35,925 nucleotides of DNA from Bacilli bacterium (GCA_018400565.1 JAGYMP010000243.1:1-35925); one strand, 5' to 3'. Counted from the stretch's first letter, positions 6,130 to 26,888 are shown. Notes: generated from the sequence alone by a model not told the origin. Translations and numbers: made by a program.

Positions 6130-7467
6130 TCATTCCGCCATTAACGTCACGATCGATCGTGGTTCAATCTCAAGATGATATTCATCTCCGCGGATGTTCA
6201 CGTTCATGGTTACCGTGGTCTCATCATCATTCATCGCGATAAAAACCACACTGTCGTCCTTATTTTTGAATGCAATCATCTTATTTGTGTCATCGGTGCT
6301 TCCGTTCGAATGAAGATGAACACGTTGTGCTCCGGGACGTACGAATTTGCTGAAATGACCGATATAATAATAACTGCTCTGATGGGTGAGTTCTTCGTTG
6401 TTAACCCGAACGATGATGGGCGCATCACACAAATTATTCACATGGTTGGGACCGCCGGTCTCATCTAAGAAAAGATTCCAATCGATGTAGCCTTGGCAGA
6501 AATTGTTGAAGTCACCGAACATGTTGTAAGCGTAACGCTCCCCGGTTGTCCAATCATTCCAATGCACACCATCCTCGCGGCAACCTTCCGTGAACAACAA
6601 CCCTTTGTCAGGATATAACGTATGAACCTTGCCGACGTTTTCAAATGCGTCGGACACATACCAATGAAATGCGGTCCCCCAAACATATCGAGAGGCTTCC
6701 GGATCGTCTAAGATGGTTTTTGCACGTTCCACCATCAGATCGCGGTTATGATCCCAAATGAGGATGCGCATGTCTTTGTGACGCGATTCCAGCAAGGGGC
6801 CGAGATGGTTTTTGACAAAATCCCTTTCTTGTTCTGCGGTGTATTCACACGAATCCCATCGCTGTTGGGCCGCCGGTTCATTTTGAACCGTGACCCCCCA
6901 GACGGAAAGACCTTGTTTTTTATACTCATCCACAAACTTCGCGATATAAGCGGCCCATGTCGGATAGTATTCCGGCAAAAGGCTTCCGCCTTTAATCATC
7001 AATTGATTGTCCTTCATGAACGCGGGGGGACTCCAAGGGCTTGCGATCAAATCAATCGGTCCCGCCCATTTTTCAGCTTCTTTGATGAGAGGGATGACAG
7101 CTTTTTTGTCGCGTGAAATGTCAAACGATTCCAGTGATTCATCACCTTCATCGATGTACGTGTAGCTATTCAGGCTGAAATCACAACTATGGATGGAGAT
7201 GCGTCCCAATGTGTATCCCAAGCCATATTCGGGGTCGAAATAATCACGGATGGCTTGTTTGCGAACCCTATCATCAACGCGTAGCAGGTTATATGCGCTT
7301 GCTTCCGTGAAAGCACCCCCAAACCCCACAATATTCTGATAAGTCGTATGCTCATCAACGATGTAGGAGGTCGCTTGTTGTGATGATCGGGAACGAGGAT
7401 GGATGTCCTCACGATGAAACCGTTTGTCACTGTATTTTTCCGTGCGGTATAATGTACCTCCCATCAT
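6130..7467 (-). CDS. GH30 family glycosidase (beta-1,6-glucanase/glucosylceramidase-like), cytoplasmic
   Basis: 445 aa; IVGFGGAFTEASAYNL, ASPWSPPAFMKDNQLMIKGGSL, WGVTVQNEPAAQQRWDSCEYT (acid/base Glu), LLFTEGCRE (nucleophile Glu). No signal peptide; 4-nt overlap with the upstream gene. Confidence 0.92.
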   Translation of the reverse strand: MMGGTLYRTEKYSDKRFHREDIHPRSRSSQQATSYIVDEHTTYQNIVGFGGAFTEASAYNLLRVDDRVRKQAIRDYFDPEYGLGYTLGRISIHSCDFSLNSYTYIDEGDESLESFDISRDKKAVIPLIKEAEKWAGPIDLIASPWSPPAFMKDNQLMIKGGSLLPEYYPTWAAYIAKFVDEYKKQGLSVWGVTVQNEPAAQQRWDSCEYTAEQERDFVKNHLGPLLESRHKDMRILIWDHNRDLMVERAKTILDDPEASRYVWGTAFHWYVSDAFENVGKVHTLYPDKGLLFTEGCREDGVHWNDWTTGERYAYNMFGDFNNFCQGYIDWNLFLDETGGPNHVNNLCDAPIIVRVNNEELTHQSSYYYIGHFSKFVRPGAQRVHLHSNGSTDDTNKMIAFKNKDDSVVFIAMNDDETTVTMNVNIRGDEYHLEIEPRSIVTLMAE

Positions 7468-10400
7468 TGTACCTCTTTTTTTAAAAACACGTCGATGGTC
7501 GAAACATCACGATCCCGAATTCTTTCTGCGATCTCACCGTCAAGGGTCTCATGGGATTCACCGTCGACTTCATAACGGGAAATCACACAAGAAGAATCAT
7601 ATGTGTCCAGAGTTTCCGGGTTGTGATAATTGACTTCGATCTCTCCGAGGAACGTGGTTTTGACGACTCCGTCCTTGAAAAAATCCTTGCTCAAAATAGG
7701 GTGAAGGCAAAGATGGAGTTCTTCTTCTTCATAAACGAAGGGTTTATCCCCGAACATCATGTATGACCACATACTAAGCATCTCGGCGGTCGATCCGCTC
7801 AATCGGGCCACAAAGCCCTGTCCCCGAACGTATGGGTCCGGGTTGATGCTGGAAGCGATGAAACTTGAATTTTCCAACACGGAACGCCCGTATATGGATG
7901 GATCCATGAAAATCGTCCAATTGGTCCGTATCTCTTCGAAGAAAGTTTCATGTAACCCGCCCTTCAACAGGCCCAGAAGGTATTTATATGTCATGTGCAG
8001 GAAGTTGGACTCGCGTTCCTGCCACCCTTTCGTAAAGCTTTTTCCCCGTCCGATCTCGTTTGATTCTTCATCCAAACACCCACTCGTTTTATAAAATTCC
8101 AATTCTTTGTCATAGATATCGGATGCTTTGATCTTTTCAAACATCGCACGTTTTAAATCGTCATCCTCAATGGTTTTTAACGCGCGTGCGGGAGCCTCGA
8201 GATAATGGGGCAAAGCACGGGCTTCAAACGCCAAAGGCTTGACAACCGGCAATCCGTAATGACCGATCTTGGGTTTGCCTTTTGTTTTAATCGGCTTATG
8301 GTCCGTCACTTCATGGACTAAATATGTCGGGTAAATGCCGTTTCCAAGGGATAGGGCCTTATCAAGGGCGCGATCCAATTTCTCTAACATCCGTGTTAAC
8401 AGCGTGTGTACATCAGCAGCAGACACATCGATGAGTTTCTTTGTGCTGAAACGGATGGCACTGCGATAATTTTCTTTGCTGGTGTTTGCGGCATCCCAAT
8501 AATCGTAATCCGTCAGTTTCTCATCCAACAAAACGGATAACTCTGAAGCGAAGCGAACGAACTCGGAAGGAAAACGGAAAGTCTGGGTTTGGTCGAAATG
8601 ATGAATCAAATATGACACAAGCCGTTTCAATTCGATCGTTTCACTCACACCACTGCCGAACATGGCAGGCAATCCATTCATGGCATCGTTCCATCCCGGT
8701 TTATCGGCTTCCATGTCGATGCCGATCCCGCTCGGATCCAAACTGGCCATTTTATTGACCGATAAAACGAACAATTTCTCAAACAGGGTGGCCTTGATTA
8801 TTTTACCGCTGCGGTCCATCAGCCAACCGGCCTGATTGGGGTCGAGATTTGTTTTCTCCATTTTTTCCCCATCGACATTCAGGAGGCTGCCATATCTACG
8901 GATCCGGCCATCCCCGGTCCTGCATATCTTTTCATCCCGCGGCAAAACAAAAATCGGACTGTCAAAATATGTGTATCCATGGTCATCATAAAGAGCATCC
9001 GACAAATGATCCGGGTAAATGGCTTCAAATGTTTCAACCAAATCCAGAATATACGTCCAATGGTCAATCCAATAACCTTCAGCAAAGTGTGCTTCGAAAT
9101 GTTGTGATGCATGCGGGAAAATCGCCGCAAAAATCTCCGCATCGGCATAATCGGTTGACACATCGTATCTTTGCATGGCATTGATGATGCTGCCGGGGGT
9201 GAACTTATCCTTGAGGACATCCTTCATCCTGTCATGTCCGTCAAAAAGTTTGTCGTTTAAACGTTCGATTGTGTCTTCATCCTGTATGGTGAAGGAAAGT
9301 CCGTCAATCGATAGGGGGTTGAATCCATCCGTCTGAATCAATGAACCAAACATTTTCATGTTGGCTTCTTTGACATCAGGGAACAACAATCCGTCATTTC
9401 TTCTGTTCTGACAGACATCGCGAAAACTGCCGTTGCCCTGGGAATAAAACTCCGGGGCAATCGAGAAATAATTATAATCCCGTTCCAAATCACCGTGACG
9501 ACGCGAAAAAAGATGATACACATAATCATGGCCGTTGCTTGGAAGCAACATCGGGTAACCGCCGCGAAGGATATTGTCCAATTGGTTCTGTTTCATGTAA
9601 TCATCAAAGGCGGAGATTGCCGTCTTTGTTTCCACTGACGTCAAAAGTACGTCCACAACATGTTTGCTTTGCTTGTGTTTTTCAATTAAAAATTCATGGT
9701 CAACGAGACGATGACGATGCTCAATCAACCATTCTTCGGAATGGGTGTGGCCGATCACTGTGTCGATGGTCGCCGTCTCGCCGGGTTCGAGTGAAAGTTC
9801 GACACCGGTGAAACCCACGGGGATTTTATTCACAGCAACTTGCTCTTCTGAAAGGACATCGGATACCTTATGATGGGCAAAATACTCCGGATGTCGTTTG
9901 GTCGTGTCTGTGCCAAAGACCTTCCGTTCATCAACGATCGGTCTTGTGAGTTCTCCGTTCACGGCGGAAAGGTAGAAATGACCGTCTTCGAAATCGACTA
10001 CTTCGGCGACATCCGCACTTGAACTGCGCATATAATAAAAGCCCATGTCTTTGTCCAAATGTTTGACATCCATCCAACTGCGGACAAGGTTCGTCAATGA
10101 TTTCATGTCCTGATAGCCGATGCCTGTCGGCAACAACTGGCTCACCCCATCCAGGATCTCAAAGGATTGTTTTCTATTTTTTTTGTTCTCGACTTCGACC
10201 ATTCTCACCAATGCGGGAATGTCAGCATTCGACAATCCGAAATACGTGACACGGAAAGACAGACCCAATGCTTTGTTGTTTTCTTCGATCGTGAACGCGT
10301 GTCGTCTTATGTGCATCAAACGTTCGTTGTCTTGCCCGCCGGAAAAAATTTCAGAAACTTCGCCGTTTTGTTTCACGAAGGTTCGAAACCCATCAATCCC

Positions 10401-10625
10401 GACGCGCTCATAAGCCTTCACGGCAGGATTGAATTCAAGGATTTGATGGTCTTTGTTTTCAACGCCGAAACTGGCAATCCCTTGTCCTCGGTTGACATAA
10501 AAAGCCCACAGGGGAATCCCCCTTTTCCCGGCGATGGCCGGCAAAAAACTGGAAAATGTTTTTTGCCGATCGTAATCTTTGATGATGAACTCGTCATCTT
10601 TCATGAAATAATTTTTCATAATCAT
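7464..10625 (-). CDS. GH94-clan-like inverting glycoside phosphorylase, probably beta-1,3-oligoglucan phosphorylase (GH161- or GH149-like)
   Basis: 1053 aa, longer than typical cellobiose phosphorylase. FYSQGNGSFRDVCQNRRND resembles the GH94 catalytic-Asp R-D-x-x-Q motif; later WNDAMNGLPAMFGSGVSETIEL and GDKPFVYEEEELHLCLHPI. Context is beta-1,3-glucan degradation. Confidence 0.75.
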   Translation of the reverse strand: MIMKNYFMKDDEFIIKDYDRQKTFSSFLPAIAGKRGIPLWAFYVNRGQGIASFGVENKDHQILEFNPAVKAYERVGIDGFRTFVKQNGEVSEIFSGGQDNERLMHIRRHAFTIEENNKALGLSFRVTYFGLSNADIPALVRMVEVENKKNRKQSFEILDGVSQLLPTGIGYQDMKSLTNLVRSWMDVKHLDKDMGFYYMRSSSADVAEVVDFEDGHFYLSAVNGELTRPIVDERKVFGTDTTKRHPEYFAHHKVSDVLSEEQVAVNKIPVGFTGVELSLEPGETATIDTVIGHTHSEEWLIEHRHRLVDHEFLIEKHKQSKHVVDVLLTSVETKTAISAFDDYMKQNQLDNILRGGYPMLLPSNGHDYVYHLFSRRHGDLERDYNYFSIAPEFYSQGNGSFRDVCQNRRNDGLLFPDVKEANMKMFGSLIQTDGFNPLSIDGLSFTIQDEDTIERLNDKLFDGHDRMKDVLKDKFTPGSIINAMQRYDVSTDYADAEIFAAIFPHASQHFEAHFAEGYWIDHWTYILDLVETFEAIYPDHLSDALYDDHGYTYFDSPIFVLPRDEKICRTGDGRIRRYGSLLNVDGEKMEKTNLDPNQAGWLMDRSGKIIKATLFEKLFVLSVNKMASLDPSGIGIDMEADKPGWNDAMNGLPAMFGSGVSETIELKRLVSYLIHHFDQTQTFRFPSEFVRFASELSVLLDEKLTDYDYWDAANTSKENYRSAIRFSTKKLIDVSAADVHTLLTRMLEKLDRALDKALSLGNGIYPTYLVHEVTDHKPIKTKGKPKIGHYGLPVVKPLAFEARALPHYLEAPARALKTIEDDDLKRAMFEKIKASDIYDKELEFYKTSGCLDEESNEIGRGKSFTKGWQERESNFLHMTYKYLLGLLKGGLHETFFEEIRTNWTIFMDPSIYGRSVLENSSFIASSINPDPYVRGQGFVARLSGSTAEMLSMWSYMMFGDKPFVYEEEELHLCLHPILSKDFFKDGVVKTTFLGEIEVNYHNPETLDTYDSSCVISRYEVDGESHETLDGEIAERIRDRDVSTIDVFLKKEVQ

Positions 10626-10671
10626 GGACTCCTTTTGTTAGTAATTTGACGAAAAATTGTGAATTCCCTTC

Positions 10672-11790
10672 TTATTCCTGGGACAAACTGTCCGCCTGAT
10701 AAACCCTCACGTAGTCGATCTCCATGCTTTGCGGCCAGATGTCGTTGTCAATACCCTGTTGACCGCCCCAGGCTCCGCCCACAGCAATATTCATGATTAA
10801 ATGAAATTCAATATCAAAGGGCCATGTGGTTGAATCTTCGGGGGCGCCTTCGGGAACAGAATAACGGAATACTTCAACATCGTCGATATACCATATCAGT
10901 TTGTCCGGCAGCCATTCCAGTTGATATTCATGAAAGGTGTTGCTGACATCATCATAAATGGCGCTGTCACCGATTTGGGTTCCACGCATATGATTGTATG
11001 CTTCCGTGTGGATGGTGTAATGGATGCGGTTAGGTTCATAACCGACGAACTCCATGATGTCAATTTCACCGGAATCGGGCCAACCGCCATACTCCCAATT
11101 CGTGGGCAGCATCCAGATTGCGGGCCAGACACCCACACCTTCGGGCAATTTCGCCGATATTTCGAATTTCCCGTAAAGCCAGCTGCCTTCGTTGTGCGAC
11201 AGCAACCGGGTAGATGTGTATTCGCGGTTTTCATAATGTTCCTGAATCGCGGTGATGGTCAGTGTCCCGTCGGATACATAAGCATTGTCGGGGTCGGCTT
11301 CCGTGTAATACTGTGACTCGCCATTGCCCCATCCGTGTCCGCCGACATCATAGGTCCATTTTTCCTCATCCGGAAGACCAGTGTAATTGAACTCATCGGA
11401 CCAAACCAATTCATAGTCCAGACCGGTATCATCCATGACGCCGTCCACAACGACGGTGACCGTTTCCGTGATTTCAACATCACGGGAGTTAGTCACTTTA
11501 TACAGCAAAAGATATTCGCCTTCTTCGGTGACGCGATTTTCATCGTCCAAACCAAGGTCATTCAGACCCTCGATGACGATTTGATCAGAAATGTCGCCAT
11601 CGACCGGATCGTATGCGATCACGTCCGCATAAGGGAAAAACTCATCTCCCTCACTCAATACGACGACTTTTTGTAAATGTCGAAACTCCGATGCAAGTCC
11701 GTCCTGTTGCGATGTCGTGTTTGCGACATCACAACCGATTCCGACGAACATCACCGTGACAAACAACAAAACCAATAAAACTTTCTTCAT
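10672..11790 (-). CDS. GH16 endo-beta-1,3-glucanase lipoprotein with N-terminal DUF5011-like domain
   Basis: The track ORF extends to 11883, but the start at 11790 (MKKVLLVLLFVTVMFVGIGCDVA) follows GGAGGAAATATGC. GH16 motif WPDSGEIDIMEFVGYEPNRIHYTIHTEAYNH; lipobox VGIGC. Confidence 0.93.
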   Translation of the reverse strand: MKKVLLVLLFVTVMFVGIGCDVANTTSQQDGLASEFRHLQKVVVLSEGDEFFPYADVIAYDPVDGDISDQIVIEGLNDLGLDDENRVTEEGEYLLLYKVTNSRDVEITETVTVVVDGVMDDTGLDYELVWSDEFNYTGLPDEEKWTYDVGGHGWGNGESQYYTEADPDNAYVSDGTLTITAIQEHYENREYTSTRLLSHNEGSWLYGKFEISAKLPEGVGVWPAIWMLPTNWEYGGWPDSGEIDIMEFVGYEPNRIHYTIHTEAYNHMRGTQIGDSAIYDDVSNTFHEYQLEWLPDKLIWYIDDVEVFRYSVPEGAPEDSTTWPFDIEFHLIMNIAVGGAWGGQQGIDNDIWPQSMEIDYVRVYQADSLSQE

Positions 11791-11854
11791 GCATATTTCC
11801 TCCAATGAATTATTTTTTAAACAAATATGATAAACATGCGTGCATTCATAAACC

Positions 11855-12781
11855 TTATTGTCCCGTGACACCGACGGACTCAATACCCTGGACGAATTTA
11901 CGTTGCGTGAACAGATAAATCACAAGCAACGGCAGGATGGACAGCAGGGTCGCAGCGGATTCGTATGCCTCACTGATCCGGTCGCTTCCACCGGCCTGGT
12001 TACCGAACAACGTTTCAAACGAATTCAATTTACCCGTCAGCAAATCGACGCCGCCGGAAAGAAAGACATTTGTGACAAAGTCTTCATTCCAGTTCCAGAC
12101 AAAGGAAAACAGGAATACGACCAAAATGATTGTCAATGATATTTTCACGGTGATATGCCAAAAAACCTGCATGGTATTTGCACCGTCGATGTTTGCCGCT
12201 TCATAGAGATCCTTGGGGATTTTCTTAAAGAAACTTTGGAAGATAATGATCAAAATGGCCGAATTGATGCCTTGCCCCAAAAGTGCCATGCTGATTTGTG
12301 GATATAACGTCCCATAGAAACTCATGCCCAAAATGTCGCCCAATGACGAAAAAATTATCTGGTGGGCCGCCGTCAGAAGCTGAACAGGCAGGATGAATGA
12401 AACAATCAACAACACAAACAGTGTCTTCTTGAACCTGAAATCATATCTCGCGAACGCATATCCGGTCAATGCGGAAACCGCGGTTTGCAGAACCGCAAAA
12501 AGCGCAGACACCCAAAACGAATTGAACAAGACCTGCCAATAATCCATGACCAGAATGGAAACGCGGAAATTATTGAGTGAGAATACTGAAGGCACCCACA
12601 TGACATCCGGGGCGATGACGTCTTCCACAGTCATGAAAGAAAGTGACAACATCTTCAACAGCGGGAACAAAAAGACAAAACTGATGGCAATCAAGACAAC
12701 ATATCGTAAAATCAAGCCGAGGCGCGACAAAATTTTCCGTTCCCTGGATTTACTGAGGGATAACGCCTTAATAAACTTCAT
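11855..12781 (-). CDS. Carbohydrate ABC transporter permease (MalG-like)
   Basis: Start MKFIKALSLSKSR after GAGGAGG; multiple TM segments; EAANIDGANTMQVFWHITVKIS (EAA loop). Confidence 0.92.
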   Translation of the reverse strand: MKFIKALSLSKSRERKILSRLGLILRYVVLIAISFVFLFPLLKMLSLSFMTVEDVIAPDVMWVPSVFSLNNFRVSILVMDYWQVLFNSFWVSALFAVLQTAVSALTGYAFARYDFRFKKTLFVLLIVSFILPVQLLTAAHQIIFSSLGDILGMSFYGTLYPQISMALLGQGINSAILIIIFQSFFKKIPKDLYEAANIDGANTMQVFWHITVKISLTIILVVFLFSFVWNWNEDFVTNVFLSGGVDLLTGKLNSFETLFGNQAGGSDRISEAYESAATLLSILPLLVIYLFTQRKFVQGIESVGVTGQ

Positions 12782-13808
12782 CGGCGGCCTCCTCACTGTG
12801 TTTCTTCTGTTTCTCATACAGTTCACGTGTGCGGTTGTATTCTTTACGGGCCATCACAACGATATCCTTGTCACGCAGGATAAATATCAGAAGCATGATA
12901 AACAACAAGGTGACAATGGTGTACAACAACGCATATGTCGCGGCAATCCCAAGGTTTGTCGCCGTCATCATGATTTGTTCCTGCAAAAGGCCGTACAACG
13001 GGTTCGTGTTGAAGATGCCGACCTGGACGACACTGAAAATTGCGATGACCAAAGCGGTCGATTTTATGTTCGGTATGATGATCAGCCATAAAATCTGCCA
13101 TGCGTTGCCACCGTCAATCTTCGCGGCCTCATAAATACTCTGATCAATCTTTTTAAGACCGTTGATGTACAAAACGATGGGAACACCCGTGAACCAAAGA
13201 ATGACAATCAGAACCCCGAACATCCCTGAAAGGAAATCGGCCATGAAAGGCACATAAGCATCGATCATGCTGAAAATGAATGTGTTTTCGATGTTCAGGA
13301 AAGCATTGTTCTCACCCGATGTCGTCGATATGTTGTTTAAAGTCGCATTGCTCAGAAGAACAACAGGCAAAAAGAAGATGACACGGAAAGTCGTCCTGAA
13401 TTTGAAATCATTGTTCAGCAACAACGCGATCAAAAAGGACATAATCAAAATGACGGGAATATACACAAACAACATGTTCACATAACTCAACAGGGATTGA
13501 TAAAAAATCGGATTCGTGAAGGCGAAAAGAAAATTCTCAAAACTGACAAAATCAAAACTGAATCCCTGCGGGGTCTTGAGCACATCGTGGAAACTCATGA
13601 AAAAGATCATGCCGACCGGAATGATCACGAAAATGACCAACCCGATCAACCACGGAAGCATCAACACATAGGGTGTTGTCGGATTGTCCCGTTTCCCCGG
13701 CTTATTGCGGGAAAAGAGACCCCGCATCCTCTTCCAGACGGAAGATTTCCTGATGCGATCATAGAGGGATGCCATGGCATCCCATCCACGTGTCAAGGTT
13801 TTTTTCAC
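12768..13808 (-). CDS. Carbohydrate ABC transporter permease (MalF-like)
   Basis: 346 aa; PYVLMLPWLIGLVIFVIIPV..., EAAKIDGGNAWQILWLIIIPNIK (EAA loop); 14-nt overlap with the next permease. Confidence 0.92.
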   Translation of the reverse strand: MKKTLTRGWDAMASLYDRIRKSSVWKRMRGLFSRNKPGKRDNPTTPYVLMLPWLIGLVIFVIIPVGMIFFMSFHDVLKTPQGFSFDFVSFENFLFAFTNPIFYQSLLSYVNMLFVYIPVILIMSFLIALLLNNDFKFRTTFRVIFFLPVVLLSNATLNNISTTSGENNAFLNIENTFIFSMIDAYVPFMADFLSGMFGVLIVILWFTGVPIVLYINGLKKIDQSIYEAAKIDGGNAWQILWLIIIPNIKSTALVIAIFSVVQVGIFNTNPLYGLLQEQIMMTATNLGIAATYALLYTIVTLLFIMLLIFILRDKDIVVMARKEYNRTRELYEKQKKHSEEAADEVY

Positions 13809-13833
13809 GTGTGCGACCCCCTTTCAACAGTGA

Positions 13834-16221
13834 TCAATCCAAGCATAGATAACTCAGCGCATCAACGGTTTGTCCCTGATACACATAATCATCGCTCGTG
13901 TAATTGATAATGATGATTTTGTCGTTTGAATACTGATTCAGGACAACCCCGTTTTCAAGAACCGATCTTGAAAGCCATGTTTCCGCCGAAACGTGTGAAA
14001 ATGCATCATCCATGGCTTGATAGATGTTGATGATCTTATCTTTGTAATCGCGGTATTGTGTGGAGATGTAACGATTCGAATTCGTGTTGGCCAAAGTATA
14101 GGATGGTTCATGCGTCAACACAAACGAAGGAAAAACATTGTAATCAATCATGCGGAGCATATCCGATGTCGAACTGAATGAGAAATTCGCATATGAAGCA
14201 TACATTTCGGCTGAACCACGCAACACCATCTGCAAAAACGGTACCGTGTCGGTTTCGAGGACATATTGGGTTGTGAATGTCGGCATGTCCAGATAACGGT
14301 CGACGTAAGTCATCAAATAGATGTTCGGCTGAACGGCATTGATGGTCATGGTCTGATGGACATCGGCGATCGCATCCGTGATTGCCTGTCTCGCATCAAC
14401 CCTGGTCATGTCTTCGAACGTGTCGCCGTACAGGTTTGAAACCACGCCTTTGATGGTCATGGAAGAAAGCCCCATGTCCAGGAAAAGATCGTTATGATCT
14501 TCCAAAAAATCCAATGAGCGACCGGGTTTCAGATAATACTCGGTTTCAATGGTCTGGTAATTTTGCAAATGGATTTCAACATACCGACCGTTTCGATGTT
14601 TGACGATATTATTCCGCAAAGTAATCATATCTTTGTTGATCACCGTGTAATCCTGAAGGAAGGACACATCATAATCCATCGCATCCATGTCGGCGATCAA
14701 ATCCATGAAATCACGTTTTGATCCGATGACATTTGAAAAATCGCTGTCTTTCGGCGAAGACAAAGTCACGCCGCCGTTTTGCCACCCAATCAAGCCTGAA
14801 ACGACATTCCGGATGTTCTCCTCATATAACTCTGACAGCATGAGACGGACATCGTCCGATGTCGACGTCACTCGTTCCTCGTAACCAAAAACACCTTGCT
14901 TGCTGTCTGCCATCAGGAAATCAATCCTTATCGGCATCGCATCCGTTTGTCCGGTTTGAATCTCAAGTAATTGCTGTTTAATCAAGTAATCACGGTATGC
15001 ATGCGCCATGCCGACATAATCGGCCGAACGACGATTCGTGGACCCATCCCCTGATAAAAATTCGTAACGCAGATTCATATCAAAATGATTGCGATCGCCG
15101 GGGAAACGGTTGTAACCGTCACCCTGGGCATTGTATACTTGTCTGAAAACTTCGCTGTAGATAAAACGGGCATAAGTCTGCACATATCCCAAAGTGCTTG
15201 ATAACGGCGTCGACACAATTTCCATGTATTCATCGCCGGATGTGGCATAAGCCACAAAGGCGGCTTCCGTCCCGTCACCGTATGACATCCCAAAAACCGG
15301 TGTGGTCGCTTGTTTCGGATTGACATAATCAGGCTCATCGATGAGATTTGAGTATGCGGATGTGATGTCCGGACCGTACACCCTTGCAACATAATCGTTG
15401 ACATTGATGTCCGTGTCCTCAAAACGAATCAACGCCCCGGGCCCGTCAGGAACGAACGAATATCCCGGATTGATGGGGTTGCGGACAGACTGATCCCTTT
15501 CATAAGACAATGATTCCTCATCAAACGGAATTGAATAACCGCCCTGCGCACCCATGAAAGGCGCAATATCGATGGACAGAAGCTTCTCCGGCTCATCGAT
15601 TTCAAGTTCGTCTTCACGGATTTCGATGTCCATCCCCTCATCATCGAAATGAAAATGGACACGCAATGTAATACCGTAATCACTGAAATCGACATCCAGG
15701 ACCCAATGGTCTCCGCTGGCAGATATCTGACTCATCGTTGAATCATAATCTGGGTCTGCACTGTACAAGCGCCGACTGCGACCACTGACGTCATCAAGAT
15801 AATTAACCGTGAGGAAGGAATTCACATATAACCTGGCGGAAGTCGACAAATCCTCGATGGGACGGCAGGTCTCTTCAAGATCATCTTCGGTGTAGGATCC
15901 CTCTTCGATCAATGTCTCACACTGATCTTCGATTTTGCCGGAAAGCGTTTCGTCCATCCCGGACATGAAGATGAACCCGTTCGTTTTATCATAAGCCGCC
16001 AAGACATCCCTTTCATCCCTGAAAAGGAACTCAAAACGATCATTGCTGTGCAGTTGGACCATGTCCTCCGGTTTGTCGATGGTATGAATGATCGACTCGG
16101 GAGCTTCTTTGGTGTCACGGCTGTTCGGCACATACTCCGCCACCAGATAGGTTGTCATCCCGACCAGCGAGATCAAAAGGATTGAAACCATGCCAATCAG
16201 ATATTTCTTAGCTGAAACCAT
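13834..16221 (-). CDS. DUF5696-like membrane-anchored protein, possibly glycosidase-like fold
   Basis: Start MVSAKKYLIGMVSILLISLVGMTTYLVAEYVPN (N-terminal TM) after GGGAGG; large beta-rich N-terminal part, then an alternating region (MPIRIDFLMADS...GLIGWQNGGV...) and a beta C-terminal tail. Family name from recall of length and context, not a search. Confidence 0.6.
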   Translation of the reverse strand: MVSAKKYLIGMVSILLISLVGMTTYLVAEYVPNSRDTKEAPESIIHTIDKPEDMVQLHSNDRFEFLFRDERDVLAAYDKTNGFIFMSGMDETLSGKIEDQCETLIEEGSYTEDDLEETCRPIEDLSTSARLYVNSFLTVNYLDDVSGRSRRLYSADPDYDSTMSQISASGDHWVLDVDFSDYGITLRVHFHFDDEGMDIEIREDELEIDEPEKLLSIDIAPFMGAQGGYSIPFDEESLSYERDQSVRNPINPGYSFVPDGPGALIRFEDTDINVNDYVARVYGPDITSAYSNLIDEPDYVNPKQATTPVFGMSYGDGTEAAFVAYATSGDEYMEIVSTPLSSTLGYVQTYARFIYSEVFRQVYNAQGDGYNRFPGDRNHFDMNLRYEFLSGDGSTNRRSADYVGMAHAYRDYLIKQQLLEIQTGQTDAMPIRIDFLMADSKQGVFGYEERVTSTSDDVRLMLSELYEENIRNVVSGLIGWQNGGVTLSSPKDSDFSNVIGSKRDFMDLIADMDAMDYDVSFLQDYTVINKDMITLRNNIVKHRNGRYVEIHLQNYQTIETEYYLKPGRSLDFLEDHNDLFLDMGLSSMTIKGVVSNLYGDTFEDMTRVDARQAITDAIADVHQTMTINAVQPNIYLMTYVDRYLDMPTFTTQYVLETDTVPFLQMVLRGSAEMYASYANFSFSSTSDMLRMIDYNVFPSFVLTHEPSYTLANTNSNRYISTQYRDYKDKIINIYQAMDDAFSHVSAETWLSRSVLENGVVLNQYSNDKIIIINYTSDDYVYQGQTVDALSYLCLD

Positions 16222-18259
16222 GCATGAACACCTCCCGGAACACGACAACGATGAAATCCACGATTTGCGAAAACATCATCTGAACAAACAGGACACTGAT
16301 TGTCAGAATGATCATCAGTAACAGCGTCAACAGCAGACTCTTCAACGTGTCTTTGAACTCATAATTTTGAATCTCGGTGATTCCCGTCAACAAAAGGATA
16401 AAGGTGTATGCATAAGCCAAAAACAAAGTGAATCCCACAAAGAATGCTTCATCCAACGTGACGATATGTGTCAATAACGTTGACAACAACATACCGATGA
16501 TCAACGGAGGAAAAGCATAAGTCGTCTGTATGAAGATTTTTTTCAGACCACTCTCTCCCCGATTGATGGACGTGATCAAGTAATTGGAGAAAACAAACGC
16601 AAGAACAATTGAGAAATAGCCGAAGATAATCGCAAAGAGATTCAAATCTTCCACGGCGGTCATCTGGAACAAAAAACCTTTGAACGCGCTGTTGATCAGA
16701 AACACGGCGAAAAGCGTGAACAACATCAATAGCGCCATGGACATCGATCCTTTGCTGCCTTTTTTGATTTCATAAAAACTGTTTCCGGGATTTTTGATAA
16801 TCTTTTTCATGAAAGACAATTCCCGGAAAAACATTTTCTTTTTCGCCTGCCCTAAAACATGGCCGATGGGGGTGAAAATGTGATATTTCCGATTGATGAT
16901 CTTCAGTGCCACCACAAAGACCGCAAAACCACCCATCAAGATGAATATCATGCTGAGATGATCCTGAATCCACAAATTACGTATCTCCCAATAAGTGTCA
17001 GAATAAAATTCACGGTTTTCCGCCAATTCAAAATGAGTGGCGGCCTGATCGTAATCTTCCTGATACATATAACATTTTGCCAATTGATCATTGCCAAGCT
17101 TGGAAATCTGATTCAGCATCAGAACGTCTTCCCACTGCTCGGCGGCCTCATCGTACTGACCTTCTTCAAAAAGGTTTAACCCCCGGTAAATACCCTTGGC
17201 GTAATCCGTCGGCATGTACGAAAGAAGATAGCCCTGTTCGCTGTCCACGGTATAAATCTCTCCCCGTGAATTGACGGCGATGGATTCCAAACTGGAATAC
17301 AGTCCGATGATGTCTTCATCGCTTGTGCCGCCGAAACTGAATATGAAATCACCGTATTTCGAATAAACATCAATGTAACCTTCGGACACAGACGATGTGA
17401 AAATAATTCCGTCGCGGTTGACATAGACATCGGTCATCTGTTCTGTACGATTGTAGATGCCGGAAAAAAGATTGCTGCCGCTTGTGCTGTGTTTCTTCAG
17501 ACGGTTTTCCATGGTCTGGGAAGATGTCGTCGAATATAAAATCCCTTTTCGGTCCACGAACACATTGGAAAAGGGCGAAGGCAACTTCACACCACCCATC
17601 TCCTGTCCAAAAAGATCATAGAAAAACTTGCGAATTCTCTCCTCCGGGGAATAATAGACATCATTCGAAGCGAAATACCCCAAAAACTCCCCGGAATAAG
17701 AAAGTTGCAAGACACCGTTGGGGTCACCTTCGCCAACCACGTAGATGTTCGCATTGTCATCCACCGCGATTTTCTTGGGTTTGAACTGTGATGCCACATA
17801 TGCCCGTGATTCGGGTCTTTCTATTGTTTGGACGTGCTGACCTTCGTCATCAAAATGAAAGATTTTGTTGGCCTGCGGATCAGCAACAAAAAGGTGGTCC
17901 TCCGCATTGATCGCAATCCCCGTCGGAGTCAAAAAATCCGGATGGGTGATTTGATCGACGATGGAACCGATCGTCGGATCGTAGATGACGATGCGGGCTT
18001 TCGACGCATCGCCGCCCGCATCATAATCCACAATATAGAGTAAATCATCGGAATCGAAAAACAAGTCCTGCGGAGACAGTAAACCCAGATTGAGTTTATA
18101 TTGATCGGAGAGGTAAGCATCCTGGGTGATGATCAATTCGCCTTTGGTCGACAGGGAATATGTATGTGTCGTGTTTGACGATGCATATCCCGTGTTCATG
18201 CCTGAGAACGCGAGTGTCGCCAAAAGCAAACCCAATATCAATATCAATCCTTTTTTCAT
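16208..18259 (-). CDS. Exported NHL-repeat beta-propeller / TPR-like / Yip1-like multi-TM membrane protein
   Basis: 683 aa; signal peptide; NHL-like blades (GLLSPQDLFFDSDDLLYIVD, FLTPTGIAINAEDHLFVADPQANKIFHFDDEGQ, PKKIAVDDNANIYVVGEGDP); TPR-like GLNLFEEGQYDEAAEQWEDVL...YMYQEDYDQAATHFELAE; C-terminal TM region. Confidence 0.75.
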   Translation of the reverse strand: MKKGLILILGLLLATLAFSGMNTGYASSNTTHTYSLSTKGELIITQDAYLSDQYKLNLGLLSPQDLFFDSDDLLYIVDYDAGGDASKARIVIYDPTIGSIVDQITHPDFLTPTGIAINAEDHLFVADPQANKIFHFDDEGQHVQTIERPESRAYVASQFKPKKIAVDDNANIYVVGEGDPNGVLQLSYSGEFLGYFASNDVYYSPEERIRKFFYDLFGQEMGGVKLPSPFSNVFVDRKGILYSTTSSQTMENRLKKHSTSGSNLFSGIYNRTEQMTDVYVNRDGIIFTSSVSEGYIDVYSKYGDFIFSFGGTSDEDIIGLYSSLESIAVNSRGEIYTVDSEQGYLLSYMPTDYAKGIYRGLNLFEEGQYDEAAEQWEDVLMLNQISKLGNDQLAKCYMYQEDYDQAATHFELAENREFYSDTYWEIRNLWIQDHLSMIFILMGGFAVFVVALKIINRKYHIFTPIGHVLGQAKKKMFFRELSFMKKIIKNPGNSFYEIKKGSKGSMSMALLMLFTLFAVFLINSAFKGFLFQMTAVEDLNLFAIIFGYFSIVLAFVFSNYLITSINRGESGLKKIFIQTTYAFPPLIIGMLLSTLLTHIVTLDEAFFVGFTLFLAYAYTFILLLTGITEIQNYEFKDTLKSLLLTLLLMIILTISVLFVQMMFSQIVDFIVVVFREVFMHGFS

Positions 18260-18272
18260 GGATGCCTCCTTT

Positions 18273-19145
18273 CTACTTGACTCCCGAATGACTCATGGTG
18301 TCCATCACATGATTCTGCATGATGATGAAAATGACGAGGTTCGGCACAAACATGATCAGACCGGCGGCTGCCGCCATGCCCTGACCCGCAACCGTGATTT
18401 CCAACGTTGAAGTCAATGTTGACATGTAAAACGCAAAGGTCTTCTTCAATTCGGAGTTAATGTAAAATTGTGATGTAATCAAGTTTGACCACGTCGCCTG
18501 AAATGTGAGAATCGCAACGGTCGCCAAAGCAGGTTTGGTCAACGGTACAACGATTTTACGGATGATGTAAAAATCACTGGCACCATCCACCCGGGCGGCC
18601 TCAATGATTTCATCCGGCAGTTGGTCGATGAATTGTTTCATCAAAAACAGACTGACCGGCATGGCAAGGAGCGGCAGAATATGGGCGGCCAAGGTATCGA
18701 GGATACCCATGTTTACAATGACGAGAAACGTTGGTATCGACACGGCAATCGGCACAAACATCAGTGCGGCCTGATTGATGTTGAACAAGGTTTGTCTGCC
18801 TTTGAAACGTTTTTTTGACAAAGCATAACCGGTAATCATGGTCAGTGTCAGATTGACAGATATCGCAATAACCGCAACCAAAACGGAGTTGAAGAGATAC
18901 ACAGTCAACGGAATCCCTGTTTCGCCGGCCGTCATGATCAACATATTAAAATTCCGTAATGACGGCTTTTGCACGAAAAACCGCGGCGGAAACAGCATCA
19001 ATTCGTCCAAAGGCTTGAGCGCCTGTGAAAAAATGTAAAAAATCGGCAGTAACATCACAGCCGCGATTGGGACCAAAATCAGATAAAATTTGATCTGTGA
19101 GCGATGGAATTTTTTAGGATTGATATGTGTACCCTTCAGACTCAT
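18273..19145 (-). CDS. Carbohydrate ABC transporter permease (MalG-like)
   Basis: 290 aa; TM segments; EAARVDGASDFYIIRKIVVPLTKPAL (EAA loop). Confidence 0.93.
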   Translation of the reverse strand: MSLKGTHINPKKFHRSQIKFYLILVPIAAVMLLPIFYIFSQALKPLDELMLFPPRFFVQKPSLRNFNMLIMTAGETGIPLTVYLFNSVLVAVIAISVNLTLTMITGYALSKKRFKGRQTLFNINQAALMFVPIAVSIPTFLVIVNMGILDTLAAHILPLLAMPVSLFLMKQFIDQLPDEIIEAARVDGASDFYIIRKIVVPLTKPALATVAILTFQATWSNLITSQFYINSELKKTFAFYMSTLTSTLEITVAGQGMAAAAGLIMFVPNLVIFIIMQNHVMDTMSHSGVK

Positions 19146-19158
19146 AGTTGTCCTCCCA

Positions 19159-20076
19159 TCAATCGCTGCCGAACAAAATCTTGCTCACCCGCGTAAATGC
19201 AAACACTATCAGGAACAGAACCACGGAAAGCGCCGATGCATAGCCCATTTCATATCGCAGGAATCCAAAGTCCGCAATATGATTCACGATCAACGATCCG
19301 GAGTATTGCGGCGTTGGGTTGATTCCGGAAAGAAGCACACCGATTTCACCCATGTTGAAAGCATTGACAATCGCCATTACCGCTCCGAACAGCATCTGTG
19401 GTTTCATGGCGGGAATGGTTATGTAAAAGATCTCCTGAAACCTGTTCTTCATCCCGTCGATGCGTGCGGCTTCATAAAGCTCGGGGTTGATGTTCAGAAT
19501 ACCGGCAAGCATTGCCAAAAAACCAATTCCCATACTGCTCCACAATGACACGATGATCATGATGTTCAACAAATAATCGGGGGATTGCAAAAATTGAATC
19601 GGCTGTTCAATGAAATCATAATGTAACAAGAACGCATTAAAATAACCTGTCTCACTACCATTGAAAAGGGAACGCCACAAAATGGTCACCAAAATGGCGC
19701 CGACCATCGATGGTGTGTAAAGCAACAGTGACAGATATTTTCTGGGACCTCTCTGCAACTGCGCGAGCATCCAGGCCATCAAAAAAGACAGAGCAAAACC
19801 CCCGGGACCGACAATAAAAGCATATTTCAATGTGTTCGGGATGATGTTTCTCACAAACGGCTCATCACCGGTCAACATGTAAACATAATTGTCAAAACCT
19901 GCGAATTCCGGCGGGTTGATTGTGTCAAAATATGTGAAAGACAAGGAAAATGCAATCAATATCGGAACAATGATAAATCCGAGGAAAATGAGAACATAAG
20001 GCAATACAAGCATGACCGATGACAAAATGTTTTTTTGCTTCTTGGTCACGGGGAAAAGAAAATCATGCTTCATCAT
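19159..20076 (-). CDS. Carbohydrate ABC transporter permease (MalF-like)
   Basis: 305 aa; [54 protein letters not shown] (EAA loop). Confidence 0.93.
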
Positions 20077-23032
20077 CTTCGCCCTCCCCTGCTTCTAGTT
20101 GCTGTCGGATCCATTCCAGATCGGCGATGCGATAGGGTTTAATCATGATGCCATTTTCCAAATATCCAAACTCAATCATCTTCCGTTCGATTTCACGGTT
20201 CATGTCTGTGACAACATCATCAATCGCCACACGTGCCGACTGGTTTTCGAACACCATTTTGTTCCAAATATCGGATATGCCGCGCTCCACAAGATATTGT
20301 CCGGGTGTGCGCGGGACATCACGGATCCAATGGATCTGGCTCATGATGACCGCTTTGTCGTCAGCCGGTATCGCCAACTCCTCAATGGCATTATAATTTG
20401 CTGAAAGCCACAAGAATGTCGGTCCATACGTTGATTGCATGTTTCTCGCAAACTCAATTTGGGTGTCTGTTGAAAGCCACCATTTGAAAAAAGTCCATAC
20501 ATCATCAATGTGCTTGGAATCATTGAATATGATGCCGCCCATGCCATTTCCGACATACCACCGGTTCATGTCGCCGGTATCCGAATCTACATAGGCAGGC
20601 GTCGGAGCCAATTCCCATTTGCCTTCGATTTCAGGTGCGGAATTGGATATGGTCACATAATCGTTGAAATTGATGATTCCGATCGGCAGGGAATTATAGC
20701 GGAATTCGTTATAAAAGGACGGAACCTGTTCGGGAACGGAATAAGTCGTGAAAAGATCGCCTAAGAACTGCAAAGCTTCCACGGACGCCCGATCATCCAA
20801 ACTGACATTCAAACCATTCTCCGTATAAATCTGACCACCATATTGGTAGATCAGCGGCACGGTCTGATAAAACCATTTAGTGCTCGGTCCTCCCGCCGTC
20901 GGATAATAGAAATTCATGTCATAGCGTTGCAACTGAGGCAAAAGACCCAAAACATCCTGCCAAGTGTCGGGGACGGACAAATCCAGTGACGAGAAGATAT
21001 CCTCCCGATAGATGATCGCATTGAAATTCAATGTTTCCGGCATGGCATAAACACCTTCATTGAAGGTGTACGGAACCATGGCACCCGGTACAAATTTATC
21101 GCCCGCATACGTCCAGAAATCATCAAACTGCGTGAGGTCATACAAAGCCCCACGGATCGCTAGATTATAAGGGACATACGAAGGGAGGCCGAAGGCCGCA
21201 TCGGGGGTCACGTCGCCCGCACTGGCCAACACGAGTTTGTCAACATTCGGCATGACCGAAAAATCAACACGTATGCCGGTTTGCGGGGTAAAGAGCGAAT
21301 CAGAGATTTTCTGCATCGCATCCACATGTGTCGTCGAACGTCCGACCCATATCTGTAAGGCTTCTGAATTTTCGTCATATTCATAATACTTGTCGGCGGA
21401 AAGCGATACGACAAATTCCTCAAACACAACACCGATACGTTTGAAAATGGACACATTTTTCGGTGTCACACGCCCGTTCGCCAGATGGATTTGATTCAAC
21501 GACATATTTTGCTCTTCCATGAAACCGATGGTATCGCCCAAATATTGGTTGACTGAACTCGATCCGCTGTAAAGCTGATCAACATATAAAGGTAATTCAT
21601 CGGGTTTTTCACTAATGTCATCAATCGCTTCAACGGCCAAGTTCAAAAACGATAGCTTACTCGATAAATCTTGTTTCTCGGAATATTGTGACAATTGCAG
21701 GATGTTGTATTTCAGAATCGTCTCATAAGCCTGCAAATAATCGACGGTTTCCGGAAAAACTTTCGTGAACTCCCATGTCCGATCCTCGACAATCACATTT
21801 CCGGTGACCTTTCGAATATCAAGCGCAAACGCATTGATATGATTGATGATGACCTGCATGTCATTGATGCGTTCAGATAATCTTGCGGTGTCCGCAGTCA
21901 GGGATATCACATGGCGCCCTTCATCCAGAAAAAAGGAAAACGTATCGTCCTTGTCCGACAAGGTCGTCATTTCCCATGATTTGTCCGTGGCTTCGATCAT
22001 GATGGATTTCGCTTCCTCAAAGGGCACTTGCCCATCAATCCTTACGGTGCGAAAAACATTGAAGTCAGCAGAATCAGTTGCGTAATACAACGATAATTCA
22101 TAGAGACCGGACACCGGAACATCAACTTCGTAAAAGAGGGTCTGACCGGGTTCTTCCCAAGCTTCAACAACATTGATTTTTTTATGGCGGGCATCAAACG
22201 GTGCTACCGAAGGGGTTTGGCGATTGTCCACCCGAATAAACGCCGAATCCTTCATCATGTAATCGGTCGCCTGCAAGACAATCTCTTGTTCGGGTTTCGC
22301 ATCATCACTGTGCATCGCGAGATATTGATTATAATCGGGCGTGGGTTGCGGGGCTTTGACGCTTAATTGTCCCAGAATCAAAACCTCGGGTGACGGGTTG
22401 CTCACTTCAATCGTGTTGATGCCGGACTCAAGGTAAAAATACAATCCATCCTCGGACACATATCGGTTATCATTGAGCGTCACCGAATGCCAGCCGATCC
22501 TAACTTGCTGCGAGGGGCTTAATTCATCCCCGTACCGATCGATTTCGTAATTTTTTGTTTCGTCCTGCCATATGATCGGCAACGTCAACATTTCTGCCTC
22601 TTCAAACGGGATCTCCCCGTTGATCTTGACATTCACCAAATAGTTATTCAGGGTGTCCCCGTTCAAAAAGTAATCCATGGCAATCTTATAATAGCCTTCA
22701 TGCTCCACGACGACATCATAAATCGCCTGTTGTCCTTCTTTCACAAGAACGGCTTGTCGGTCGCCATCCGAGTGTTGGTCACTTATGTTACCTTGAGAAA
22801 GGGAAACATCACCGTCATTGAGTGTGTAATCAATGTCCGCGTAATCCACATAGTCAACATAGGGATTCTCCCCCAGATCATCCACCAAATACTGATATGC
22901 GTCGCGATAGGACTCCGTATCGACCTCCGATTCATATTGATCGAGCCGGCTTCTGTCAAAACCAATGATCAGCATCGCAACGATGCCGATGATCACGGCG
23001 AAAAATACTGTTTTTAAAATTCTTTTTTTCAT
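20063..23032 (-). CDS. TM-anchored solute-binding protein (SBP_bac_1-like) fused to two N-terminal CBM35/6-like modules
   Basis: 989 aa; N-terminal [27 protein letters not shown] without lipobox Cys; two beta-sandwich-like segments ([21 protein letters not shown]..., [21 protein letters not shown]...); C-terminal half with [75 protein letters not shown]. Confidence 0.85.
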
Positions 23033-23066
23033 GATGTTCCCCCCATAAACCCAAGGATTGTTCTAG

Positions 23067-24653
23067 TCAGTCGCCGAATCGCTCATCGCCTTCGGCATAA
23101 CCATAATGGGTGATCAGAGAATCTTCGACTTCCTGCCAGGCCATATCAAGCCGGTCATTGAAAAGGTCGGTCCAGGGATCCAACTTGGAATAAAAAGTGT
23201 CAAGCCATGCGGGATCCTCGATGGTAATGTCACCGATTTCATAGAAATACCAAAATTCCTCAAAGATCATCTCACGTGTTTCCGTGGTTTCATCGGTATA
23301 AAACCAGGGATAGATTTTATCACTGATGGCTTTGACGTCACCGGAGCGGATGATGTCCAACATCGCTTCGAAACCGGGTTTGTCCTCATAATAACTGTTG
23401 CTTCCGATCTGATACCAATAATCCATCTGTTCATCAAAAAGTTCTCCAGTGGTCACCGGCAGACTCGCATCTGCCGCGCCGGTCACGACATTGACTTGAC
23501 CTTCGGTTGATGTTTCACCGTATTCCTGGGTTGCACGCGCTTCCCGGGCTCTTGAATCAGCGATCATGAAGATGGCAAACTCATAGGCCACGTCCATTTT
23601 CTCTTTTTCCTCGACGCTGCATTCGGGGTCGCCGTCGTCGTTGCAGTAATTATACACACCCAGGGGATCGGTGACCGTTGAGATCGTTGTTTCCCTTTCA
23701 TTGTAACCCGGGAACGGATACACATCAAAACCATCCGGTCCGGGCATGCTGCTGTTATGTTGCGCGAATGTATCCAAATACCAAGGATCTTCGGGGTACA
23801 CGGTCACAACTCCGTCTGAGAATGCATCAGGGGCCCAGGTCACATGTTCGTCTTGATAATCTTCTTCGTGGGCATAGAATTGATAGTCATTCCATTCTTT
23901 CATGCCGTCCGCGAAGAATTGTCGGACCTCTTCCGTGTCCAAATCCACATAACTATTGTCATAAAGATCGTCATAGATGAACATTTGTTTTGCCCAAGTG
24001 CTAGGTAATGCCCCCAACCCGCTGTAACCATCGGCCTGCCCTTCGCCGTTCATGACGAGGTCGCTGAAATCATCGAAATCCCAACTGGGTTGAACTTCCG
24101 GTAAGAATTCATCCTGAATAATGTTCTGGTTGATATACATACCATGCGGGATGAAGTAGCCGGGCAATGCGGCCTGCATGCCAAAGTAGTTGGCCTGCTC
24201 CATCAATCCCGGGTTCAGCTGTTGGTATAACTCATCATCCTCATAAACGGATAAATCAGCCAAAACACCTTGTTTCAACAGTTGAACGGTGTCAATGATT
24301 GAAAACACAGAAGGATAACTCCCGTATTTATCTTTATAATTGCTTAATTCCTGATCCCAGAAAACGCCGCCGTCATCCGGCCCCGCTTCCTTTCCGAGAT
24401 AATTAATCTTGACGTTCGGATAAATCTCGTTGAAAGCTTTGGCAGTCGCATAAATCGATGCCACTTTTTTGTTGGTCAAATCTTCTGCAGTGAAGTTTTG
24501 ATGTCCGATATCTTTATAATGGATGCCATTGCCTGCCCACGTCATCAATGATATTTCGGCAGTCACATCGGTATCCAATCCGTCATTCCCTCCACAGGCA
24601 GTGATGACGAACGCAAATATCATCATCATCAAAACAATGATCATTCGTTTCAT
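23067..24653 (-). CDS. Extracellular carbohydrate solute-binding lipoprotein
   Basis: 528 aa; MKRMIIVLMMMIFAFVITACGGND lipobox; SBP features (ISLMTWAGNG, YATAKAFNEIYPNVKINYLGKE, VFSIIDTVQLLKQGVLADLSVY); RBS AGGAGG. Confidence 0.88.
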   Translation of the reverse strand: MKRMIIVLMMMIFAFVITACGGNDGLDTDVTAEISLMTWAGNGIHYKDIGHQNFTAEDLTNKKVASIYATAKAFNEIYPNVKINYLGKEAGPDDGGVFWDQELSNYKDKYGSYPSVFSIIDTVQLLKQGVLADLSVYEDDELYQQLNPGLMEQANYFGMQAALPGYFIPHGMYINQNIIQDEFLPEVQPSWDFDDFSDLVMNGEGQADGYSGLGALPSTWAKQMFIYDDLYDNSYVDLDTEEVRQFFADGMKEWNDYQFYAHEEDYQDEHVTWAPDAFSDGVVTVYPEDPWYLDTFAQHNSSMPGPDGFDVYPFPGYNERETTISTVTDPLGVYNYCNDDGDPECSVEEKEKMDVAYEFAIFMIADSRAREARATQEYGETSTEGQVNVVTGAADASLPVTTGELFDEQMDYWYQIGSNSYYEDKPGFEAMLDIIRSGDVKAISDKIYPWFYTDETTETREMIFEEFWYFYEIGDITIEDPAWLDTFYSKLDPWTDLFNDRLDMAWQEVEDSLITHYGYAEGDERFGD

Positions 24654-24721
24654 AACAATCTGTCCTCCTATTCGTTCATCGACAAATCAAACGTGAGACA
24701 TCATATTTTCAGTCCGTCGAC

Positions 24722-24764
24722 AAAAATGAAAAACCAAAGGGACAAGCACCTAGGTACTTGTCCC
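24722..24764 (-). terminator. Terminator or attenuator hairpin downstream of the 24787..25620 gene
   Basis: Minus strand GGGACAAGTACCTAGGTGCTTGTCCC followed by TTTGGTTTTTCATTTTTG; near-perfect 26-bp inverted repeat. Confidence 0.75.
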
Positions 24765-24786
24765 GGATGAATCGTAACAATGATAC

Positions 24787-25620
24787 CTATTCAATCAATT
24801 CTTGGACGACAACGTTATCAATATAAACGGTCGTTACGGTTTCATCGCCTTCAATTGATCCCAGTTCAAATGTAACAACACCATCTGTCGTGTCTGCTTC
24901 CGACACAGTGAATGTGTAAGTGTAAGTCTGCATATCTGTTGTCAATTCGAATACTTCGTAATCATCGCCATAAATCGTAAACCAAGGTGCCGTATCGAGT
25001 AAGACACCGACTTGGGAGGCCATGCTTCTGGCTTCGTCGGCGCGTGCATCAAAGGAGACTTGATAGGTTTTACCGTTCTCATAAGTCAATCCGCCTTGAT
25101 GCATACGTGGTGAAGCAGGTCCCCAGGAAACTGCGGTCATCTCAATGACCATTTCGCCGTTTTCGGCAGTGACATTTGCAGCGCCGCCTTCAAATTCACC
25201 TTTTTCCCAACCAGTCAATTCGTTCGTCTCAAAATCACCGTTGTCAATCATGTTATCACCGGCAACCGGTTCTCCTTTTTCGATCGTAACGGTGGAAATC
25301 TTCATTGCGCTCAAATCGTTGCTGTTGGTGACCGTGTATGTCAGTGTGCATTCGATGCCTCCGACAGTCACGACACCGTCTTCGAGGTTAAGGCAATCAG
25401 TGCCGTCAACTTCGATCTGGTCGGTGATGTCCCCGTCGATTTCATCCGTCGCAGTGACACCTTCCAACGGGTCGAACTCATCCCCGGCGGTCAATGTCAC
25501 AAAGGATTCGATTCCCGACAATGTCGGAACGGTCGGTTCGACGGTTGTGGTCGTTTCACCGCATGCCGCCAAGAACACGACAAACAATAACGATAACAAT
25601 AAACCCGTAATCTTTTTCAT
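24787..25620 (-). CDS. Lipoprotein with DUF5011-like domain and CBM4/9 (CenC-like) carbohydrate-binding module
   Basis: 277 aa; MKKITGLLLSLLFVVFLAACGE; LEGVTATDEIDGDITDQIEVDG (DUF5011-like); MIDNGDFETNELTGWEKG...YQVSFDARADEARSMASQVG...TVYIDNVVVQE (CBM4/9-like). Confidence 0.85.
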   Translation of the reverse strand: MKKITGLLLSLLFVVFLAACGETTTTVEPTVPTLSGIESFVTLTAGDEFDPLEGVTATDEIDGDITDQIEVDGTDCLNLEDGVVTVGGIECTLTYTVTNSNDLSAMKISTVTIEKGEPVAGDNMIDNGDFETNELTGWEKGEFEGGAANVTAENGEMVIEMTAVSWGPASPRMHQGGLTYENGKTYQVSFDARADEARSMASQVGVLLDTAPWFTIYGDDYEVFELTTDMQTYTYTFTVSEADTTDGVVTFELGSIEGDETVTTVYIDNVVVQELIE

Positions 25621-25661
25621 TTTAAAATTCCTCCAAAATATATTTTTTTGTTTCTTATGCG

Positions 25662-26825: not shown

Positions 26826-26888
26826 AATGTTGGCTCCTTTCGGATAATCAGTATATTATAAAAACCGATTTCTTTGTTATACGCTTAC

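Follow-up and report, generated by a model that had tools for sequence, protein, structure and literature searches.

The closest described relatives of the system reported here are CUT1 ABC importers that share an ATPase, for which MsmK provides the precedent of a multitask ATPase encoded elsewhere (PMC12710961), and the gene clusters that accompany GH161 in Acholeplasma. As set out in the part of the GH161 survey covered here, A. laidlawii and A. oculi carry a permease pair without a solute-binding protein (SBP) beside an SBP-bearing cluster, most loci have no ATPase, and a shared SBP was proposed (PMC6484121). We analysed a stretch of 35,925 nucleotides from a Bacilli bacterium (GCA_018400565.1 JAGYMP010000243.1:1-35925; 'the window' means this whole stretch), in which two permease pairs enclose two membrane proteins, an NHL/TPR/Yip1 protein (YIP) and a DUF5696 protein, downstream of two SBP genes. 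The block comprises seven or eight genes in fixed order and is present in many gut and soil bacteria; the case that it is a conserved composite importer is strong. A literature search returned no mention of DUF5696 and nothing joining 'YIP1 family protein' with ABC permeases and carbohydrate, and the text on the Anaerocellum xyloglucan importer (Athe_2052-2054), considered as a described case, contains neither DUF nor Yip1 proteins. We conclude that this composite oligosaccharide importer was previously undescribed.

Gene content and order of the module

Open reading frame (ORF) calls and Pfam matches place the following genes on the minus strand of the window, given here from 5' to 3':

23067-24653, minus strand: SBP-A, a lipoprotein SBP of 528 aa (signal ...FVITACGG; profile match to a solved SBP)
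20063-23032, minus strand: SBP-B, an N-terminally anchored SBP of 989 aa (PF01547, 6.6e-16)
19159-20076, minus strand: F1, a MalF/UgpA-type CUT1 permease (PF00528, 1.9e-11; EAA loop YEAARIDG)
18273-19145, minus strand: G1, a MalG/UgpE-type CUT1 permease (PF00528, 1.2e-16; EAA loop IEAARVDG)
16208-18259, minus strand: YIP, an NHL/TPR/Yip1 membrane protein (Yip1 4.8e-11, NHL 9e-8, TPR_2 5.6e-7)
13834-16248, minus strand: DUF5696, a transmembrane (TM) anchor with an external GH129/GH101-like fold (PF18952, 6.4e-139)
12768-13808, minus strand: F2, a second MalF-type permease (PF00528, 5.1e-8; EAA loop YEAAKIDG)
11855-12826, minus strand: G2, a second MalG-type permease (PF00528, 2.3e-12; EAA loop YEAANIDG)

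The initial annotation of this DNA had described a co-directional run of permease, permease, YIP, DUF5696, permease and permease with gaps of 25 nt or less, and both the order and the spacing are borne out: 13 nt separate F1 from G1 and G1 from YIP, YIP and DUF5696 overlap, 25 nt lie between DUF5696 and F2, and F2 and G2 overlap. The range it gave, 12768-20076, holds from F1 to F2 but omits the fourth permease, G2, and the two SBP genes upstream were overlooked. The real start of DUF5696 is likely near 16221 (MVSAKK...) rather than at the ORF start of 16248.

To survey the module in other genomes, module-derived profiles were applied to about 150 loci in three sets that overlap in part: loci of the same family or order (set 1, L032-L071), genome contig loci found with DUF5696 (set 2, L075-L154, including Acholeplasma oculi, Haloplasma, Lachnospiraceae, Treponema, Paenibacillus, Bacillus, Thermoanaerobacter, Mahella and Thermotogota), and loci of the wider class plus two plasmids (set 3, L213-L254). 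The order SBP-B, F1, G1, YIP, DUF5696, F2, G2 is essentially invariant over these Bacilli, Clostridia, Treponema and Thermotogota loci, and lies far beyond chance because it is repeated in essentially every DUF5696 locus. Where the flanks allow a count, YIP stands beside DUF5696 in 37/37, 69/70 and 38/38 loci of the three sets (144/145 in sum) and F2 occupies its expected slot in 35/36, 75/77 and 39/39 (149/152), while the sums for the other slots are 140/140 (G1), 136/136 (F1), 86/86 (SBP-B) and 147/147 (G2). The departures from the order are accounted for by L126, where a frameshift splits DUF5696, by L055, whose ORF call is over-long and overlapping, and by L125, where a piece of the contig is inverted. 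F2 and G2 are fused in L071, L240 and L247; this fusion, like the splitting of YIP in one clade, alters the gene count while leaving the set of parts unchanged. The NCBI annotations of Paenibacillus cellulosilyticus and Butyrivibrio fibrisolvens likewise run SBP, permease, permease, YIP1 (or NHL plus YIP1), DUF5696, permease, permease.

A single-sequence YIP scan of genome contigs gave no match, its patterns being too narrow, and alignment A1 was used instead. In a phylum sample of 392 genomes, YIP was found in 48, and strong DUF5696 matches (E < 1e-50, counted from the table) in those 48 plus G028. The G028 copy (L030:1219-2238), with the N-terminus of a GH161 and the C-terminus of a DUF5696 protein, was dismissed as a lone DUF5696 since the chimera sits before F2; it is either a remnant of a genomic deletion or a misassembly. 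The objection raised with the initial annotation, that the two families might normally occur apart from ABC permeases, fails because the neighbourhood survey found the opposite: YIP and DUF5696 stay with the permeases.

Among 77 non-redundant complete modules the pairwise distances of the components correlate (YIP-DUF5696 r = 0.91, 0/500 permutations as high; other pairs 0.67-0.90), which shows inheritance as a unit rather than contact. Several copies of the module can occur in one genome, each with one dedicated YIP/DUF5696 pair. The genome of the window itself carries a second module (L033, G000:C200), of a type in which YIP is split, with a GH3 gene nearby.

Permease pairs, ATPase and binding proteins

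All four permeases of the window exceed the PF00528 cut-off, and their closest NCBIfam models are UgpA/UgpE/MalG/GlcT/GlcU. The EAA loop, at which the ATPase docks, is kept by all four and by the consensus of each slot, so that both pairs should dock an ATPase. No ATPase gene lies within the window; its own genome (72% complete) holds one 373-aa UgpC-type homologue (6.7e-124), far above the rest, and ugpC adjoins the module in P. cellulosilyticus. A shared UgpC/MsmX-type ATPase encoded elsewhere in the genome is the putative power source of both pairs. The P. cellulosilyticus locus (L213), on a plasmid, has ugpC upstream of the module and, downstream, two further SBPs together with LLM-class flavin oxidoreductases, an unusual substrate context.

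The permease tree gives F1, F2 and G2 a clade apiece, with full support and distinct from ordinary CUT1 permeases, indicating that each slot is old. F2 does not group with F1 but with a different CUT1 permease, and the F1/G1 pair evolves about twofold more slowly than F2/G2 (mean distances 0.57/0.63 versus 1.22/1.07). These lineages, together with the intact EAA loops, rule out F2/G2 as a recent duplicate or a degenerate copy of F1/G1.

Distinct lineages and differing rates would also be expected if the operon housed two separate ABC importers, one taking the shorter oligosaccharides and the other those that are longer or branched, with an SBP apiece, and with YIP and DUF5696 serving only one importer or acting as surface glycan receptors, in no supercomplex. 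Many modules do carry two SBPs, and the GH161 survey, in the part covered here, interpreted the arrangement in Acholeplasma as a pair of adjacent clusters (PMC6484121). Independent importers should, however, separate occasionally, whereas the YIP and DUF5696 genes were always found flanked by both pairs, and no locus combined them with a single pair; we consider two importers a serious but rather unlikely alternative.

SBP-A, which has no Pfam match, was identified by its lipoprotein-type N-terminal signal and by profile A3, which matches the solved SBP 22hh at 2.3e-65; this relative (474 aa, 2.3e-65 by profile) is represented by five solved PDB entries, 22hh-22hl. The SBP-A gene lies directly upstream of SBP-B in most modules. 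In SBP-B the SBP_bac_1 domain is restricted to residues 584-858, preceded by about 550 extra aa; the protein has one hydrophobic segment, at its N-terminus, its best PDB match is Lin1841 (1.5e-9), and its gene is kept beside F1 across loci.

The YIP and DUF5696 proteins

Both proteins had been annotated from the start as membrane proteins outside the standard ABC importer set, with the propeller and TPR of YIP and a large domain of a TM-anchored DUF5696 outside the cell. The first point agrees with Pfam matches above cut-off to Yip1, NHL and TPR_2 in one protein (PF04893, 43.3 bits versus 28.6) and to PF18952 in the other (464.7 bits versus 25.6), and the second is what models and hydropathy predict. 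YIP consists of a signal peptide, an NHL propeller (Foldseek match to Lin41/TRIM NHL, 7.9e-15), TPR, a TM helix near 437-455, a linker rich in basic residues (456-506; 12 K/R versus 2 D/E) and a C-terminal Yip1 TM bundle, and in its AlphaFold model (pLDDT 91.2, pTM 0.83) helices 506-682 form the multi-TM Yip1 domain. Together, the signal peptide, TM helix and basic linker predict that the propeller and TPR face outward and that the linker is internal. In one clade YIP is split into separate NHL/TPR and Yip1 genes; proteins of this type carry no more specific NCBI name than 'YIP1 family protein' or 'NHL repeat-containing protein'.

The AlphaFold2 model of DUF5696, built with 62 sequences (pLDDT 91.8, pTM 0.91), has a TM helix at the N-terminus, followed by a large beta-sandwich and then a TIM barrel, and ends in a C-terminal beta-sandwich. 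Its best Foldseek match in the PDB is the GH129-like DagB (5opq, 9.2e-31, TM-score 0.71 by target); 8rzk and NagBb (5wzn) are also among the top matches, followed by GH101 and GH36, and hhalign against three GH129 enzymes (L250-L252) returned a probability of 97.5 over 378 columns. Of the 25 Pfam families listed across the 62 DUF5696 members, none is GH129 or GH101, and the window copy matches PF18952 only. An assignment to GH13, raised by weak alpha-amylase hidden Markov model matches, was rejected, as fold and profile comparison point to GH129/GH101; the weak matches arise because a TIM barrel is common to both. L250-L252, which had looked like DUF5696 proteins without permeases, are really GH129 enzymes (L251 versus NagBb, 3.5e-195), and since the PF18952 model scores them above cut-off, automatic DUF5696 calls can be wrong.

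Activity of NagBb requires Asp435, equivalent to Asp486 of DagB (PMC5698469). The corresponding residue is Lys600 in the window copy, and D or E in 41 of the 62 relatives. The acid/base residue of NagBb, which we take to be E478 in the SSEE motif, aligns with Val639 of the window copy at a position that varies across the family. With Lys in place of the catalytic Asp and the acid/base Glu unconserved, the window DUF5696 is predicted to be inactive, and sequence and model together make it likely a glycan-binding pseudo-glycosidase. An active membrane-anchored glycosidase or transglycosidase, trimming side chains before uptake, would account for the GH129/GH101-like fold, the GH129 profile homology and the acidic nucleophile position of many relatives, but the window copy has lost both catalytic residues and GH129/GH101 substrates (alpha-linked GalNAc or anhydro-galactose) do not match a beta-1,3-glucan; we find this improbable. 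Thus the original proposal of an import-coupled complex capturing or processing oligosaccharides keeps its tie to import, in the near-obligate association with both permease pairs, but loses processing by DUF5696, the GH129 catalytic pair being gone here.

In eukaryotes Yip1 proteins take part in the trafficking of membrane proteins, with a Rab-GTPase and vesicle role for which no bacterial counterpart is assumed here, and TPR and propeller domains often mediate protein contacts, yet there seems little chance that YIP and DUF5696 are membrane chaperones for permease assembly or quality control, outside the working transporter, as neither a retained sugar-enzyme fold nor a dedicated pair for each transporter copy is expected of a general chaperone.

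Glycan context, proposed mechanism and known systems

The module is surrounded in the window by three GH16 genes, a GH30 and a GH3 gene, and by genes for CBM/Ig proteins and LacI regulators; the enzyme genes are:

25662-26825, minus strand: GH16 upstream of the module (PF00722, 1.1e-19)
10672-11883, minus strand: secreted GH16 beta-glucanase (PF00722, 1.6e-25), overlapping the end of G2
7464-10625, minus strand: GH161 beta-1,3-glucan phosphorylase of 1053 aa (PDB 9qqk, 2.5e-224; no Pfam match)
6130-7467, minus strand: GH30 (PF02055, 1.5e-82)
5326-6027, minus strand: GH16 (PF00722, 5e-21)
643-2535, minus strand: GH3 family glycosidase (PF00933, 2.9e-73)

GH161 has no signal peptide or hydrophobic segment and is therefore probably cytoplasmic. 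From this context the substrate of the window copy is likely oligosaccharides of beta-1,3-glucan, a polymer of algae and fungi, and its close relatives also carry the block beside GH16, GH161, GH3 and GH30. The glucan link first suggested is likely for the window, but the module overall is not laminarin-specific, and that specificity was dropped because its neighbours vary by clade. Most modules of the Bacillus, Paenibacillus and thermophile loci L133-L154 stand beside PF10091 'glycoamylase' and GH35/GLMA-like genes (SOGP once), and so appear to serve a glycan other than beta-1,3-glucan. In the split-YIP clade (L215-L249, e.g. L217, L219, L220, L222) a tally over the set gives NamZ, NAGPA, GKRP_SIS_N (MurQ-like), a BadF-type kinase and glucosamine isomerase, neighbours that suggest uptake of peptidoglycan sugars. 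This variation marks the block as a general glycan-import module, whose substrate is probably set by the SBPs and flanking enzymes.

The sole full-consensus sigma-70-like promoter in 24400-28600 (26917-26889, minus strand) lies ahead of the upstream GH16, and a terminator-like 11-bp hairpin with a T-rich tail (24764-24739, minus strand) lies just ahead of SBP-A, so placed that transcription into the transporter genes may be attenuated. Promoter-like matches in 5000-24800 are no commoner than in shuffles. A row of VTC-domain, DUF4956 and CotH-kinase genes at 32412-35281 (plus strand) is oriented divergently to the glucan locus.

We infer import as the direction of transport, the glycan fragments named above as substrate, glycan and permease binding by YIP and DUF5696, and physical assembly of the parts. 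GH16 and GH30 would cut beta-1,3-glucan outside the cell; SBP-A and SBP-B would capture the released oligosaccharides; long or branched ones would be held at the surface on a platform of YIP and DUF5696, which would also couple the SBPs to both channels; F1/G1 and F2/G2 would pass them across the membrane, driven by the shared ATPase; and GH161 and GH3 would degrade the imported sugars. We give about equal weight for and against this reading, a dedicated composite CUT1 importer, surface platform included, for oligosaccharides cut from larger glycans. A physical supercomplex, with YIP as its putative bridge, is plausible. That it constitutes a new ABC importer architecture, a single supercomplex in which the Yip1 bundle bridges two permease pairs and the propeller/TPR arm and dead glycosidase take fragments too large or branched for one SBP, we propose tentatively, leaning somewhat against it.

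Several points weigh against the composite importer. The loci were mostly retrieved via DUF5696 and are thus conditioned on it, the three sets partly overlap, and the reverse search via YIP covers one phylum sample; simple co-inheritance would give the same distance correlations; SBP-A is absent from some modules; and other DUF5696 members, those that keep the acidic residue, may be active.

Capture and import of long polysaccharide fragments by Gram-positive-type bacteria are far less understood than Sus systems, and hosts of the module include gut, rumen, termite, soil and thermophilic bacteria. The supercomplex, if real, would be a Gram-positive counterpart of outer-membrane Sus-type glycan capture, and one genetic block would have been retargeted to other glycans across several phyla through changes of SBPs and flanking enzymes. 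Two families of unknown function become assignable to glycan import, with DUF5696 placed structurally as a GH129-like fold.

Like CUT1 importers with a shared ATPase (MalEFG/UgpABE, MsmX/UgpC/MsmK), the module has an SBP and EAA-bearing MalF/MalG pairs, most copies without a local ATPase; unlike them, it has a second permease pair, an SBP of 989 aa whose N-terminal extra region is long, and two obligatory non-ABC membrane proteins. YIP shares above-cut-off domain matches and the propeller fold with the Yip1 family (PF04893) and NHL-repeat proteins, but differs in being a fusion, or an adjacent split pair, whose genes are linked to those of ABC permeases. DUF5696 shares overall fold and domain order with the GH129/GH101 alpha-N-acetylgalactosaminidases and DagB, from which it departs in the Lys at the catalytic Asp position here, its membrane anchor and its constant ABC permease neighbours. 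The Acholeplasma GH94-GH161 clusters come closest: they were published as two clusters, one without an SBP, in an account whose part covered here does not mention YIP or DUF5696 (PMC6484121), whereas the A. oculi locus L087 holds the full module, with GH16, GH161 and GH3 behind it. The two published clusters are therefore parts of one block, which bears on the GH161 puzzle, in that the Acholeplasma permeases without SBP or ATPase and the SBP-bearing cluster are halves of one module.

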